From the NCBI RefSeq assembly GCF_007752535.1, contig NZ_CP036426.1, positions 6,014,001 through 6,078,000 on the forward strand: 64,000 nt of DNA. Direction: 5' to 3'. The notes beneath the pieces were generated by a model. It was not told the DNA's origin, did not search any database, and was given only the letters and a program-made list of their open reading frames with translations. Position numbers and translations under genes: made by a program. Positions 1,081 through 7,304 of this stretch are shown here, one piece after another; position 1 is the first letter of the stretch, and every line of letters starts with the position of its first letter. The DNA is from Tautonia plasticadhaerens (GTDB lineage Bacteria > Planctomycetota > Planctomycetia > Isosphaerales > Isosphaeraceae).

Positions 1081-1105
1081 GCTGACCGTCACGGATTTTG
1101 GGGGG
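1081..1105 (+). repeat. Left terminal inverted repeat of the 1354 bp IS
   Basis: 25 bp identical in inverted orientation to 2410-2434. The transposase stop codon (1089-1091) is embedded in it. Confidence 0.88.
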
Positions 1106-2339
1106 TAGCCGAGCGGTATCCGCCGAGGGAGGCGGAGATGAGCAGGTTCTGGAGCCAGTCGTCGTGGTAGCGATGGCCGTTGTGACGTTCGGCGGGGCAT
1201 CGCCATCCCTCGTTTGCTCTCGCGACGGCCGGGTGCCAGGGGGCATAGTTCGCCAGAAGCGCCCAGGCCCGGCCGTGGAGTCGGCAGGCGGCAGGTGAGC
1301 CATGTAGGTGCTGGCCGCGGTCGAAGTCGCGGTTCATCCCGCGCATCATCCGGTCCAGCATGTTGCTCGTGCGGTGGCCGCCGGGGTGCGCGTACGCCGT
1401 GGCGTATTCCTTCGACCGGCCGCACAGCTTCTCGACCTGCTCCCGCAGCCACGCCGACATCGCCTGCCGCCGGGCCCATTCGCGCAGCCGCCGCAACCGC
1501 TGCGCGAAGCTCCGGCGCGACGGCGCGTGGTACGATTCCCAGACCCGCTTCGACAGCTCCCGGAACGGCTCGCTCAGCTTGCCCCGACTGCGGATGTCCA
1601 GCCAGCCATGCAGGAAGCAGCGGAGCAGCACGACCAGCGGGAACAGCGTCAGCCACGCCTGATGCGTCGCGGCCCAGCCGTCGACGCTCACCGTCCGGGG
1701 CGCAAACTGCGGCTCGACGTCGCGGCCCTCGGCCTTGAGGACGCCGTAGGCGTCCGTCAGCTCGGCGGCCCCGGCCGACGCGGCCGGCTCGACGCCCAGG
1801 ACGCAGCCGTCGCCGACGGTCGTGGCCAGGTAGACCTTCTCACCGTCGATCGTCTGGTGATGCTCGTCGGCCAGGAGGTGCTCGGGCAGCCGGGCCCGTC
1901 GCACGGTGGTCCCCACGATGCTCGACCGGCCCAGGCCGCACGTCAGCCGATACCAGGACATCGGGTCGCGGCCGAAGACGCGGGCCAGGGCCCAGAACGG
2001 GACGCCGAAGGTCCGCAGGAACAGCGGGCCCTCGGCGTCCGCGACGCGAGCCGCCATGTAGGGCATGAGGAAAGAGGGCCGGACGCTGTTGGCGGCTCCG
2101 TCCCGCAAGCGGATGCGTCGGATCGGCAGTCCCCGCTTGGCCGATGTCCGCTCGTCCTTCAGCTCATAGCCCCGGGCGAACCCCGGCGGGAACAGCTCCG
2201 GGGACGCTCGGAAGCCCTCGTCGAGCAGCCGCCGGAACGCGGCCGGATCGTCGACGGCGTGCGCGTAGGAATCTTCCGAGATGGGCAAGCAGATGGTACG
2301 GTGCCCTCGCGAGGACCGCGCCACGGTCCCGTCGGCCAT
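1089..2339 (-). CDS. DDE-type transposase of the 1354 bp IS
   Basis: 416 aa. The start is the ATG at 2339 (MADGTVARSS), because a very strong Shine-Dalgarno (GGAAGGAGGTGG) lies just upstream; the ATG at 2360 would include that site in the coding region. Candidate RNase H-fold features are an Asp in LLADEHHQTIDGEKVYLATT (about residue 165), an Asp in TVSVDGWAATHQAW (about 225) and a following C-x2-H (RCFLHGW), a motif seen in IS256/Mutator-like transposases. The C-terminal half is rich in Arg and includes HRTSNMLDRMMRGMNR. The gene fills almost all of the element. The family is unassigned; intactness suggests it can still be active. Confidence 0.8.
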   Translation of the reverse strand: MADGTVARSSRGHRTICLPISEDSYAHAVDDPAAFRRLLDEGFRASPELFPPGFARGYELKDERTSAKRGLPIRRIRLRDGAANSVRPSFLMPYMAARVADAEGPLFLRTFGVPFWALARVFGRDPMSWYRLTCGLGRSSIVGTTVRRARLPEHLLADEHHQTIDGEKVYLATTVGDGCVLGVEPAASAGAAELTDAYGVLKAEGRDVEPQFAPRTVSVDGWAATHQAWLTLFPLVVLLRCFLHGWLDIRSRGKLSEPFRELSKRVWESYHAPSRRSFAQRLRRLREWARRQAMSAWLREQVEKLCGRSKEYATAYAHPGGHRTSNMLDRMMRGMNRDFDRGQHLHGSPAACRLHGRAWALLANYAPWHPAVARANEGWRCPAERHNGHRYHDDWLQNLLISASLGGYRSATPQNP

Positions 2340-2409
2340 GATCCACCTCCTTCCGTGCACCGTGGATCATGGCCGTTTTGTCGGATCACGTCAGCACGCC
2401 GGCAGCCAT

Positions 2410-2603: not shown

Positions 2604-2684
2604 TGGCAACGGCCGGTCGATCTATCGTTCCCGAGCGGGGCGTTTCGGTCAACGGGAAGCCTCCCCGGGGCGACCGGGGGGCGA

Positions 2685-2781
2685 CGGGAGCGTATGGGAA
2701 TCGAACCCACCGGCGACCTGTCTCCAGGCCGCCCGACTGGTTTTGAAGACCAGGGCCGGCACCAGCCGTGCGCCCGCTCCC
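2685..2781 (-). tRNA. selC: tRNA-Sec (anticodon UCA), selenocysteine tRNA
   Basis: 97 nt from 5' end 2781 to discriminator G at 2685. The anticodon arm CTGGT-CTTCAAA-ACCAG carries UCA (complement at 2744-2746), which reads UGA. A 9 bp extra arm (GGCGGCCTG, loop GAGA, CAGGTCGCC), a T-arm with TTCGATT and a long acceptor (GGGAGCG pairing with CGCTCCC, plus an eighth G-A position) fit the 8+5 bacterial SelC plan. CCA is not encoded. It would be charged with serine and converted to selenocysteine. No selA, selB or selD gene lies in this window. Confidence 0.9.
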
Positions 2782-2794
2782 CGAGGGCCGTCCC

Positions 2795-2800
2795 AGCATA
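2795..2800 (-). promoter_or_regulatory. -10-like element TATGCT upstream of tRNA-Sec
   Basis: TATGCT on the minus strand ends 13 bases before the tRNA 5' end, a fitting distance for a start about 7 nt upstream of the mature tRNA. No convincing -35 hexamer is visible 16-18 bases further upstream. Confidence 0.35.
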
Positions 2801-3007
2801 GCCCGGCGGGAGGCCCGACGCGAGGATCCGGGTCGGCTCTTCGCCCAATCCGGCCCGGGGTCCGGCGAATAGAGCGGGGGACGGCGGGGACTATCCCGGT
2901 GCCTGGGCCGTCGTTACCATGCTCCCGTCCCGGCGGCGGCGTGAGTTCACGCCGATCCCGCCGACCCGGATCCGGATCACGCCCCTGGCCTCGAGGAGTC
3001 GCTCGCG

Positions 3008-3832
3008 ATGGCTGCGGACCCCAAAGCAGACCGCCCCGCCCCGCCCCCGGAGATCGATTCGGTCAAGATCTTCTCCTACCCGAAGGTCATCTTCCTCTGG
3101 CCGACGATGGTCTTCGCCTTGATCTGCGGCCTGGGCATGCTCGTCGTCGGCAGCGGGGAGCCGGTCCGGGGGCCGATGGAGGCTGATCCGGTGATCCAGG
3201 TCGAGGGGGAGGAGGTCGCCGGGGCGGATGCGGTGGCGGGCGCCCCGATCGATGATGACCTGCCGCCCGAGAAGGTCCGGCGCTTCTCCAGTTGGCAGAA
3301 CATCATCGGCGTGGTCTTCCTGATCGTCTTCGCCGTGAACATGATCGTGATGTCGCTCGACTTCCCCAGGTTCACCCTGATCGCGGTGATCCTCTTCGTC
3401 TTGATGATGGCCTTCCTGCTGCTGTACCTGGCCTCGCAGGGGGTCGACTTCCTCTCCCCGCTGACGACCCTCTCGAGGTTCCTCTACTTCACGGCCAACG
3501 CGGGCTTCTACTTCGCCATCGCCTCGGTCCTGGGCGTGATCTTCCTGATCATCTGGGCGACCCGCCGCCTGGACTACTGGGAGGTCCGGGCGAATGAGGT
3601 CCTGCACCACCACGGCCCGCTGAGCGATCTGGAGCGCTACCCGACGATCCAGCTGAAGTTCTCCAAGGAGATCCCCGACATCCTGGAGTTCCTCTTGGGG
3701 CTCGGCGCCGGGCGGCTCGTCCTCAACTTCAGCACCGCCGACCGGCAGATCGTGCTCGACCACGTCCTCTTCATCAACGCGAAGGAGGAACAGTTGAAGC
3801 AGATTATGTCCCGGCTCCGGGTCGACGCTTGA
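3008..3832 (+). CDS. Conserved planctomycete membrane protein of unknown function
   Basis: 274 aa, ATG start at 3008. An N-terminal cytoplasmic stretch (MAADPKADRPAPPPEIDSVK) is followed by a hydrophobic segment at about 29-47 (VIFLWPTMVFALICGLGMLVV), an acidic linker, then three more segments at about 98-112, 121-141 and 159-180. A soluble C-terminal domain of about 90 residues ends QLKQIMSRLRVDA. No catalytic motif is seen. It stands alone between the tRNA-Sec gene and a convergent gene, with a strong hairpin directly after its stop. I recognise the general type but no function. Confidence 0.8.
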   Translation: MAADPKADRPAPPPEIDSVKIFSYPKVIFLWPTMVFALICGLGMLVVGSGEPVRGPMEADPVIQVEGEEVAGADAVAGAPIDDDLPPEKVRRFSSWQNIIGVVFLIVFAVNMIVMSLDFPRFTLIAVILFVLMMAFLLLYLASQGVDFLSPLTTLSRFLYFTANAGFYFAIASVLGVIFLIIWATRRLDYWEVRANEVLHHHGPLSDLERYPTIQLKFSKEIPDILEFLLGLGAGRLVLNFSTADRQIVLDHVLFINAKEEQLKQIMSRLRVDA

Positions 3833-3838
3833 TCCGTT

Positions 3839-3870
3839 CGCGGGGCGGCGAGGCCTCAGGCCGCCCCGCG
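3839..3870. terminator. Bidirectional GC hairpin between convergent genes
   Basis: An 11 bp perfect stem (CGCGGGGCGGC at 3839-3849 with GCCGCCCCGCG at 3860-3870) lies between and into the ends of two convergent genes. It lacks a clear U-tract. It overlaps the last codons of the minus-strand gene ending at 3856. Confidence 0.6.
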
Positions 3871-4656
3871 ATCTGCCGGCCTGTTAGCCTCGGTCCCCGC
3901 CCCGGCAGGGAGGCCGAGCAGTTCGTCGAGGACGGGACCGAGCAACGCCTCCTCCAGGTCGGCCAGCCTCCGGGCGACCTGGGCGCCGTCGAGCACGCGG
4001 TGGTCGTAGATCAGCTTCACGGTGACGAGACCCGAGGCGTCGATCGGCCCGTAGGTAAGCGTCGTCGTCAGCGGGCTGATCGGGTGGTACGACTCGGCGC
4101 CGAGGGCCCCGTAACTCGACAGGCCGAAGGTCCCCAGCCGCTTGGCCCGCTTCGGTCCGGAGCAGGCCAGGGTGCTCCACCAGAGGAATCGGCGGATCGG
4201 CGCCGGGTAGCCGCTGATCCGGAGCATCTGGCGGAAGAAGCCGACCCGCTCCAGGGGCCAGGACCGGTACTCGTCCAGCGCCTCCTGCAACTCGGAGATC
4301 GACTGCCGCTCCGGGGCCCGGAACAGGCCGACGCAGATGCAGGGCTCCCCCTCGTGCTCCCGCTCCATCGCCAGGGCGGCGATCGAGTACGGATGCTCGT
4401 AGAGCCGGAGTCGGGGCACCGTGAGCAGGGCCCGCCTCAGGCCCGGGTCCGCGTCGCAGACCAGGCCGTACGCCTTGAGGAAGAGCACCGGCCAGGACGG
4501 CCGGATCGGGTGCGATCGCCGGGCCTCGGCCAGCGGGCCCAGGCGCATCGCCCGGCCGACGGGGACCGAGGGGACTTGCCGGGCGAAGTGCATCATGTCC
4601 AGGATGAACCGTCGGGGCCCGGACAGGGGCAGCGTACGACCCTTGGGCTGGGGCAT
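3856..4656 (-). CDS. 2-oxoacid dehydrogenase acyltransferase-like protein (catalytic domain only)
   Basis: 266 aa. ATG at 4656 (MPQPKGRTLPLSGPRR) has a good GAGGTG ribosome site 5-6 bases upstream; longer frames run into non-coding sequence. The C-terminus has YDHRVLDGAQVARRLADLEE, matching the HxxxDG active-site signature of dihydrolipoamide acyltransferases and chloramphenicol acetyltransferase-like folds. There is no lipoyl or E1/E3-binding domain and no dehydrogenase gene nearby, so it is probably a stand-alone acyltransferase rather than part of a pyruvate dehydrogenase complex. Substrate unknown. Confidence 0.75.
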   Translation of the reverse strand: MPQPKGRTLPLSGPRRFILDMMHFARQVPSVPVGRAMRLGPLAEARRSHPIRPSWPVLFLKAYGLVCDADPGLRRALLTVPRLRLYEHPYSIAALAMEREHEGEPCICVGLFRAPERQSISELQEALDEYRSWPLERVGFFRQMLRISGYPAPIRRFLWWSTLACSGPKRAKRLGTFGLSSYGALGAESYHPISPLTTTLTYGPIDASGLVTVKLIYDHRVLDGAQVARRLADLEEALLGPVLDELLGLPAGAGTEANRPADRGAA

Positions 4657-4837
4657 CCGATCACCTCGGGGCGGGACGGGGACGGACCGGCCTCGACCAT
4701 ACGCACTCCCCCGGATTCCGGGAAGGCGAACCGCCCGACCCGGTCGGCCGAATCCCGAGGCGTCGGGCGGTCGGATCGGCCCTCGCAGCGACCTCGATCC
4801 CGGCCGACCCCCGGACGGTCCCTGACGGAGCGACCTC

Positions 4838-5608
4838 ATGGATTCCCGCCCGAGCATCTTCGTCCATCTTCTCCCCTCGCTCATCCCCGAGGGCGCCCTG
4901 GGGGGCGGGGTGGCGGTCGTCCTCGACGTGCTCCGGGCGACGACGGTGATGGTCCACGCCTTGGCCTCGGGGTGCGAGGCGATCGTCCCCTGCCTGGAGA
5001 TCGAGGAGGCGGAGGAGGTCGCCGCCTCGTTCCCGCCCGGGACGGCGATCCTCGCCGGGGAACGGGGGGGGCTCCCCATCCCCGGCTTCGACCTCGGCAA
5101 CTCCCCCGGTGACTTCCACCCGGAGGTGTGCCGGGGGAAGACGCTGGTGATGACGACCACCAACGGGACCCGGGCGATCCTCTCAAGCCGGGCGGCGGAT
5201 CGGGTGCTGATCGGGGCGTTCCCGAATCTCGGGGCGATCGTGGGGGAGGTGGGAGTGTCCCGGCAGGACATCCACGTCGTCTGCGCCGGGACCGACGGGC
5301 TCGTCAGCTTCGAGGACACGATGCTCGCCGGGTGCCTCGTCCTGGAGCTGGAACGGGGATCGGGGTTGTCCGCGGGGAATGACGCCGCCCTGATCGCCCG
5401 GCGGTGCTGGGAGGCGTCGGGCCCGGGGCCGGGCCTGGCGTCGACCCTGGCGACCGGGAGGGGGGGGCGACGGGTCTCAGGGTTGGGGCTGGGGGCCGAC
5501 ATCGAGGCCGCCGGCCGGGTGAGCCGGTCCGACCTCGTCCCCGAACTGCGACCCGGGCCGCTCCGAATCGTCGCGGCGGGGGCGACCCGGGGGGGCCGGA
5601 TCGGGTAG
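4838..5608 (+). CDS. comB: ComB-family 2-phosphosulfolactate phosphatase
   Basis: 256 aa, ATG at 4838. The family is recognised by VLDVLRATTVMVHAL near residue 30, GERGGLPIPGFDLGNSP near 80, TTTNGTRA near 105, and CAGTDGLVSFEDTMLAG near 150. ComB is a Mg-dependent phosphatase that hydrolyses 2-phosphosulfolactate to sulfolactate in coenzyme M biosynthesis; many non-methanogenic bacteria carry homologues whose role is less clear. No ComA or ComC gene is nearby. The reading frame is intact and close to family length (about 240 aa). Confidence 0.85.
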   Translation: MDSRPSIFVHLLPSLIPEGALGGGVAVVLDVLRATTVMVHALASGCEAIVPCLEIEEAEEVAASFPPGTAILAGERGGLPIPGFDLGNSPGDFHPEVCRGKTLVMTTTNGTRAILSSRAADRVLIGAFPNLGAIVGEVGVSRQDIHVVCAGTDGLVSFEDTMLAGCLVLELERGSGLSAGNDAALIARRCWEASGPGPGLASTLATGRGGRRVSGLGLGADIEAAGRVSRSDLVPELRPGPLRIVAAGATRGGRIG

Positions 5609-5732
5609 AATCGGCGACCGGGCCAAGCGAGCCGGCGACCGGCCCCGCCCGCTTGTCCCGTTCACGACCCTCGATCGAACCCAGGCACCGGGGCGGGCCA
5701 GGCCAAGGTCTGCCCCGAGGAGACGCGACCCG

Positions 5733-7304
5733 ATGGACATGGAGAAGCTGGTTTCCCTCTGCAAGCGACGCGGGTTCATCTTCCCGTCGAGCGAAATCTA
5801 CGGGGGCCTCAACGGGTTCTGGGACTACGGCCCGCTCGGCGTCGAGCTGAAGCGGAACATCAAGGACGCCTGGTGGCGGGACAACGTCACCGGTCGGGAC
5901 GACATGGTCGGGCTCGACTGCTCGATCATCATGAACCCGAGGGTCTGGGAGGCGTCCGGCCACGTCGGCGGCTTCGTCGACCCGATGGTCGACTGCCGGC
6001 AGTCCAAGGAACGCTACCGGGCCGACCAGCTCTACGTCTTCGGCATCGCCCGGGAGATGGCGGGAGCCGGGGATGAGCACGTCCACGAGGGGGCGACCGG
6101 GAGGGAGTTCCCGGCCTGGGTCGAGCACCGCGTCTCGGCCGTCGGCGCCTCCCCGCTCGACGCCTGGGAGGCGGCCAGGCCGAAGGCCGCCAAGCTGCTG
6201 AAGACCAAGCCCGCTGGCCTCGGCGACCCGCCGGCCGGGACGACGGCACTCTACTTGCATCTGGCCCCTGAGGAGCGGGCGAAGGTCGTCGGGCCGGCGG
6301 CCGACGAGCCGGGCACCCTGACCGAGCCCCGGCAGTTCAACCTGATGTTCAAGACGAGCGTCGGGGCCCTGGAAGACGCGTCGAGCGTGGCCTACTTGAG
6401 GCCCGAGACCGCCCAGGGCATCTTCGCCAACTTCAAGAACGTGCTCGACACCAGCCGGGTGAAACTCCCCTTCGGCATCGCCCAGATCGGCAAGAGCTTC
6501 CGCAACGAGATCACCCCGCGGAACTTCACCTTCCGGTCCCGCGAATTCGAGCAGATGGAGATCGAGTTCTTCTGCCGCCCCGAGGACTCCCAGGAGTGGT
6601 ACGCCTACTGGCGGAAGGAGCGGTTCGACTGGTACGTCCGCCACGGCCTCCGGAGCGACCGGCTCCGGCTCCGGGACCACGACCCGGACGAACTGGCCTT
6701 CTATTCGCAGGCGACGGCCGACATCGAGTACGAGTTCCCCTTCGGCGTCAGCGAGCTGGAGGGGATCGCCCATCGGGGGCACTACGACCTCGGCCAGCAC
6801 CAGAAGTTCAGCGGCCGGGACCTGACGTATTTCGACGAGGAGACCAAGCAGCGGTTCCTCCCCCACGTCATCGAGCCCTCGGCCGGGGCCGACCGGGGGA
6901 CGCTGGCGTTCCTCTGCGAGGCCTACGCTGAGGACGAGGTCGGCGGCGAATCCAGGACGGTCCTGAAGTTCCACCCGAGGTTCGCGCCGATCAAGGCGGC
7001 CGTCTTCCCGCTGGTGAAGAAGGACGGCATGCCCGAGAAGGCCGACGCGATCTATCGATCGCTCAAGCGGCGGCACAACGTTTATTATGACGAAAAGGGC
7101 GCCATCGGCCGGCGGTACCGGCGGCAAGATGAGGCGGGGACCCCCTATTGCCTCACCGTCGACGGCCAGTCGCTGGTCGACGGCACCGTGACGATCCGGG
7201 ACCGGGATTCGCTGGTGCAGAAGCGCGTCCCGTCGGACAATCTCGCGGGGCTGATCGGCGACCTGCTCGACGGCACGGTCGGACTCGACACGGTCGGCTC
7301 CTGA
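5733..7304 (+). CDS. glyS: Glycyl-tRNA synthetase, dimeric (class II) type
   Basis: 523 aa. It charges tRNA-Gly with glycine in the cytoplasm. The N-terminus MDMEKLVSLCKRRGFIFPSSEIYGGLNGFWDYGPLG is the standard start of the single-chain alpha2 type. Class II motif 2 is FRNEITPRNFTFRSREFEQMEIEFF (about 258-282). The C-terminal anticodon-binding domain begins near RFAPIKAAVFPLVKK and ends with DGTVTIRDRDSLVQKRV. The segment between about 108 and 195 (after the IAREM) is a family insertion and is Ala/Pro-rich here. ATG 5733 is used; ATG 5739 is also possible. A TAGAAT -10-like box overlaps the comB stop at 5606-5611. Confidence 0.95.
   Translation: MDMEKLVSLCKRRGFIFPSSEIYGGLNGFWDYGPLGVELKRNIKDAWWRDNVTGRDDMVGLDCSIIMNPRVWEASGHVGGFVDPMVDCRQSKERYRADQLYVFGIAREMAGAGDEHVHEGATGREFPAWVEHRVSAVGASPLDAWEAARPKAAKLLKTKPAGLGDPPAGTTALYLHLAPEERAKVVGPAADEPGTLTEPRQFNLMFKTSVGALEDASSVAYLRPETAQGIFANFKNVLDTSRVKLPFGIAQIGKSFRNEITPRNFTFRSREFEQMEIEFFCRPEDSQEWYAYWRKERFDWYVRHGLRSDRLRLRDHDPDELAFYSQATADIEYEFPFGVSELEGIAHRGHYDLGQHQKFSGRDLTYFDEETKQRFLPHVIEPSAGADRGTLAFLCEAYAEDEVGGESRTVLKFHPRFAPIKAAVFPLVKKDGMPEKADAIYRSLKRRHNVYYDEKGAIGRRYRRQDEAGTPYCLTVDGQSLVDGTVTIRDRDSLVQKRVPSDNLAGLIGDLLDGTVGLDTVGS

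Follow-up and report, generated by a model that had tools for sequence, protein, structure and literature searches.

A selenocysteine tRNA gene with a G-A eighth acceptor layer and the scattered selenocysteine genes of Tautonia

Does the tRNA-Sec gene (selC) of this locus, whose eighth acceptor pair is G-A, belong to a working selenocysteine (Sec) system, and which proteins might that system serve? The gene lies in a 64-kb stretch of DNA that was analysed as a whole (G000:C1:6014001-6078000; the window) in the genome of Tautonia plasticadhaerens (G000, 9.4 Mb, 6 contigs), and was compared with those of three other Tautonia genomes, G001 (Tautonia sociabilis), G002 and G003. An earlier note had recognised a SelC of a planctomycete from the UCA anticodon, a 9-bp extra arm and 8+5-type arms. 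The host is indeed a planctomycete, as Tautonia is a member of the Isosphaeraceae (Planctomycetota), and both ARAGORN and the Rfam covariance model for bacterial tRNA-Sec agree with the identification.

The tRNA-Sec gene and its fold

The gene was delimited by ARAGORN, Rfam RF01852 and segmentation to positions 2685..2781 on the minus strand. ARAGORN called 2686-2779 on this strand as tRNA-SeC with anticodon TCA, and RF01852 matched 2686-2781(-) over model positions 1-91 of 91 (65.9 bits, E 3.3e-11; gathering score 47), the sole Rfam gathering-level match within the window. The discriminator base G73, the complement of the plus-strand C at 2685, falls one base outside the Rfam match, and the CCA end is unencoded. 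Across the whole source genome, RF01852 gave 13 matches at E<=0.001, the second best of them weaker (50.0 bits) and shorter, and matches were also found in all 14 control genomes, 5 above the cut-off. These weaker matches are probably long-arm Ser/Leu tRNAs, and the window selC, with its 65.9 bits over 96 nt, stands clear of them.

Segmentation placed the 5' acceptor strand GGGAGCGG at 2774..2781(-), with its eighth base, G, at 2774, and the 3' acceptor strand ACGCTCCC at 2686..2693(-), with the A at 2693 opposite G8, so that seven pairs are followed by G8-A as the eighth. The T arm (2694..2710, minus strand) has a 5-bp stem, GTGGG/CCCAT (GUGGG/CCCAU in RNA letters), and the loop TTCGATT; the acceptor/T helix thus comprises 13 layers, of which 12 are standard pairs and layer 8 is G-A. 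The extra (variable) arm at 2711..2736(-) is 26 nt long with a 9-bp stem, and the anticodon TCA (UCA) at 2744..2746(-), found by both ARAGORN and segmentation, sits in the arm CTGGT-CTTCAAA-ACCAG, with a 5-bp stem and the loop CUUCAAA. The linker and D arm together span 20 nt (2754..2773, minus strand); manual segmentation and the folding of same-genus sequences assign them a 6-bp D stem with one bulged base, and in the folds of G002 and G003 this stem closes a loop of 4 bases. The minimum-energy fold of the source-genome tRNA is an alternative, in which part of the acceptor-side linker pairs with the D arm.

With the bacterial tRNA-Sec described by RF01852, the gene shares the UCA anticodon, the long extra arm, the 6-bp D stem with 4-base loop, the 8+5 layers and G73, whereas its eighth layer is G-A, its CCA is unencoded and its D stem has one bulged base, a feature common to almost all planctomycete relatives examined. 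The bulge was considered as a novelty and dropped, because it is common in relatives and published for Clostridiales: the same 20-nt D region was found in 31 of 33 relatives, and a bulge at 13a of tRNA-Sec occurs in Clostridiales according to PMC5330540. The D region also has this length in 91 of 93 parsed genes from a cross-phylum pattern search, among the matches listed.

Since a long extra arm and G73 are, as is generally known and as noted in PMC7609411, also found in tRNA-Ser, the gene could in principle encode a UCA suppressor or another class II tRNA, Ser-like or an allo-tRNA, that reads UGA as serine. We regard this as extremely improbable, given that the tRNA has eight acceptor layers and a 6-bp D stem with 4-base loop, that it matches the Sec model best, along the model's full length, and that the genome encodes SelA, SelB and SelD. 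The tRNA is instead an ordinary selC of a known system, set apart by one minor structural oddity.

Selenocysteine machinery and predicted selenoproteins

None of selA, selB and selD lies within the 64-kb window, as the earlier note had remarked; they are scattered in the genome, not absent from it. The selA gene (C1:2121692-2123047; 513 bits, Pfam SelA domain) adjoins selB (C1:2123100-2124998; 348 bits, Pfam SelB winged-helix domain) 3.9 Mb from selC, and selD (C1:1193090-1194028; 352 bits, one in-frame TGA) lies 4.8 Mb from selC, all three scoring above the curated cut-offs. The Sec machinery of Tautonia is therefore complete and spread over three places, with selA-selB, selD and selC apart in one genome. 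All four genes, selC, selA, selB and selD, are kept in each of the four Tautonia genomes.

To identify candidate targets, genes were read by choice with TGA as U. In selD itself, the TGA falls at the redox position (NCAGUAGK, CAGU); it is found at this position in all four Tautonia genomes, and a Cys codon takes its place in the relatives G017, G022, G027 and G030. With the SelD motif, rows were obtained for 16 of the 28 loci scanned (two genomes counted twice) but not for the other 12. Directly upstream of selD lies a SelW-like gene with TGA at the redox position (EYCALU, CALU); among the genomes compared, 22 of the 26 places matched by PF10262 show the SelW-like TGA, and every one of these 22 lies in a genome that has sel genes. 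An AhpD-like protein (NQCPYU, CPYU) is encoded in all four Tautonia genomes. A Prx-like protein (ADWUPFC) is encoded in the source genome, and its TGA form is also present in T. sociabilis; beside the Prx-like gene of the source genome lies one for a Trx-like protein (ASWUAGC), which occurs in G002 and G003 as well. SelD, SelW-like CxxU, AhpD-like CxxU, Prx-like UxxC and Trx-like UxxC proteins are all among the prokaryotic selenoprotein families listed in PMC2398784.

The earlier note's expectation that the organism encodes selenoproteins is thus borne out, as far as sequence can tell, by selA, selB and selD together with five TGA-containing redox genes, those for SelD and for the SelW-, AhpD-, Prx- and Trx-like proteins. 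Five predicted selenoproteins is a lower bound, because the search covered a limited set of families (PF10262, PF00578, PF00085, PF02627, TIGR00476, TIGR01553 and one formate dehydrogenase); the PF00085 search of four genomes returned no TGA-containing match. A GC-rich hairpin follows the TGA in selD and in the SelW-like gene, in single-sequence folds from a GC-rich genome made without a shuffled control, and hairpins after the TGA also appear in folds of further target genes, again of single sequences without shuffled control or covariation.

Formate dehydrogenase, which the earlier note had suggested as an example of a UGA-containing homologue, was considered as a Tautonia target and rejected. 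No match to TIGR01553 (FdhN-type formate dehydrogenase) was above cut-off in the four Tautonia genomes, and a search with one formate dehydrogenase found best matches in the source genome that were 31-34% identical and contained no in-frame stop. TIGR01553 was above cut-off in 10 of 59 relatives, and in every one of them the joined match contained 1 TGA. As a separate observation, a short formate-dehydrogenase-like Sec protein (SCNRTUHAPSVAGL), which apparently has no N-terminal iron-sulphur domain, was seen at loci L114, L115, L116 and L117 (in G008, G017, G013 and G019, respectively); at L114 its gene adjoins an FdhD-like gene recognised by eye. Copies at least 70% identical to it and with an in-frame TGA were present in 8 of 59 relatives, none of them Tautonia.

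In the predicted pathway, SerRS would charge the selC tRNA with serine, and SelA would turn Ser-tRNA into Sec-tRNA using selenophosphate supplied by SelD, which is itself predicted to contain Sec. SelB would then deliver Sec-tRNA at in-frame UGA codons that have a hairpin downstream, allowing read-through in the predicted targets, namely SelD and the SelW-like CxxU, AhpD-like CxxU, Prx-like UxxC and Trx-like UxxC proteins.

Gene neighbourhood and spread among relatives

The tRNA gene and the genes on its high-coordinate side (about 2680-7300, plus coordinates) are syntenic in all three other Tautonia genomes. Horizontal arrival of selC is not supported, because the tRNA and its flanking genes are syntenic across Tautonia. 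On the other side, positions 1081-2434 of the window constitute an insertion sequence bounded by perfect terminal inverted repeats of 25 nt, and it ends about 250 bp past the tRNA 3' end. Its open reading frame (1089-2360, minus strand, 423 aa) had no Pfam match at E 0.001, and the element had no match in the selC neighbourhoods compared from the three other Tautonia genomes.

Among 59 related genomes, tRNA-Sec was counted as present at an RF01852 match of at least 62 bits, and tallies were made by hand from the tables. By this measure 33 of the 59 carry tRNA-Sec, and in 31 of these 33 selA, selB and selD are all above cut-off; the two exceptions are G015, with a selA divided between two contigs, and G029, which has no selB above cut-off. 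Of the remaining 26 genomes, G009, G024 and G032 have two sel genes each, G040 has a weak selA-like gene (273.7 bits) as its sole sel gene, and 22 have none of the four sel genes above threshold. With 22 of 59 genomes lacking sel genes and 33 of 59 carrying tRNA-Sec, the distribution of Sec use in the family is therefore patchy, in line with the uneven use that the earlier note had described for the group. SelA-like proteins of 155-274 bits were also seen in G040, G049 and G057, genomes without tRNA-Sec, selB or selD above threshold, and probably represent a PLP enzyme that is related to SelA but serves a different role. At locus L280 (G041:C184:22000-33000), from a relative of another family, genes for a SelW-like protein, selD, selB, selA and selC stand in a row, as opposed to the scattered genes of Tautonia.

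A full-text search of the open-licence literature found no paper joining Tautonia and selenocysteine. Isosphaera pallida belongs to the Isosphaeraceae. Sec use in this family is already in print through I. pallida, for which PMC4807772 describes a full Sec-insertion gene set, as it does for Gemmata obscuriglobus and two planctomycete isolates (P1 and P2). In strain P1 the Sec genes are, by that account, likewise not all together. Tautonia differs from the systems described there in that no formate dehydrogenase selenoprotein was found, the predicted targets being SelD and the four other redox proteins.

The eighth acceptor layer

All four Tautonia genomes have the G8-A combination, as does G008. 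Layer 8 is non-standard in 13 of the 33 related tRNA-Sec genes (G-A in 5, U-C in 5, G-G in 2 and A-A in 1), a set made up of 30 genes from a first segmentation and 3 added from a second; among the 30, the segmentation of G006 went wrong in the extra and T arms owing to its T loop, TCCGA, which leaves the eighth pair unaffected. In the cross-phylum pattern search, 93 of 116 loci could be parsed, the 23 left out including some near locus ends and some with presumably other T loops. Among the matches listed, 26 of the 93 parsed genes have a non-standard layer 8 (A-G in 11, U-C in 8, G-G in 4 and G-A in 3), a biased sample and not a census, because the pattern itself prescribes part of both the D arm and the anticodon arm. 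Again among the matches listed, the 11 A-G cases consist of 10 from genomes named as Neomarinimicrobiota or Marinimicrobia and 1 from a bacterium of the FCB group. Those with G-A come from T. sociabilis, Melghiribacillus thermohalophilus and a deltaproteobacterial MAG, and in 7 of the 8 with U-C the C could pair instead with the G before the T stem, giving a 7/6 arrangement. The G-A pair that the earlier note had called unusual is thus real and uncommon, but it is not peculiar to Tautonia: with 13 of 33 relatives and 26 of the 93 listed pattern genes lacking a standard pair, a non-standard eighth pair is recurrent.

Bulged bases and an acceptor/T helix of 12 bp have been described for bacterial tRNA-Sec (PMC5330540), and the 8/5 structure, the contact of the D arm with SelA and occasional acceptor mismatches are reviewed in PMC7609411. 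Like the 7/5 (12-bp) tRNA-Sec of Secmarker (PMC5330540) and that of the Cloacimonetes type, the Tautonia tRNA has only 12 standard acceptor and T pairs. In those forms 7 residues, frequently including a bulge, separate the T stem from G73, whereas Tautonia has 8, so that 13 layers are kept with a mismatch. G8-A may stack as a non-canonical pair; the acceptor/T helix would in this way retain its 13 layers even though layer 8 lacks a standard pair.

A broken eighth pair could also be the first lesion in a decaying, non-functional selC of a lineage that is losing Sec. Such a relic would fit with the 22 relatives devoid of sel genes, with the insertion sequence close to the tRNA 3' end and with the degenerate SelW-like gene of T. 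sociabilis; yet every other stem of the tRNA pairs, selC and the three protein factors are kept throughout the four Tautonia genomes, the SelD and AhpD-like TGA codons are conserved in all four, and many genomes with the full machinery have non-standard eighth pairs. We consider decay of selC very unlikely, and the gene is almost certainly a functional selC of a Sec-using Tautonia with predicted selenoprotein targets.

The SelW-like gene of T. sociabilis (L274, G001:C39, near 93486-93659) is an observation in its own right. It keeps the TGA, its partner Cys is replaced by Arg (RALU) and further conserved residues are also changed, so that the gene looks, from its sequence, as if it were decaying. 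With this Cys lost, the genus does not keep all of the predicted targets intact.

Tautonia therefore joins the Sec-using planctomycetes, with a complete machinery, a small predicted thiol-redox selenoproteome and no formate dehydrogenase found. It is possible, and we propose it tentatively as somewhat short of an even chance, that layer 8 of bacterial tRNA-Sec needs length and not standard pairing. If so, the G-A of Tautonia, the A-G of Neomarinimicrobiota and the U-C of several Gemmataceae, Isosphaeraceae and Proteobacteria, in which the T stem can gain a sixth pair, would be natural tests of the 13-bp-helix rule of SelA and SelB. The repeated loss of the standard eighth pair offers natural variants with which to test the gauging of the tRNA-Sec helix by SelA and SelB.
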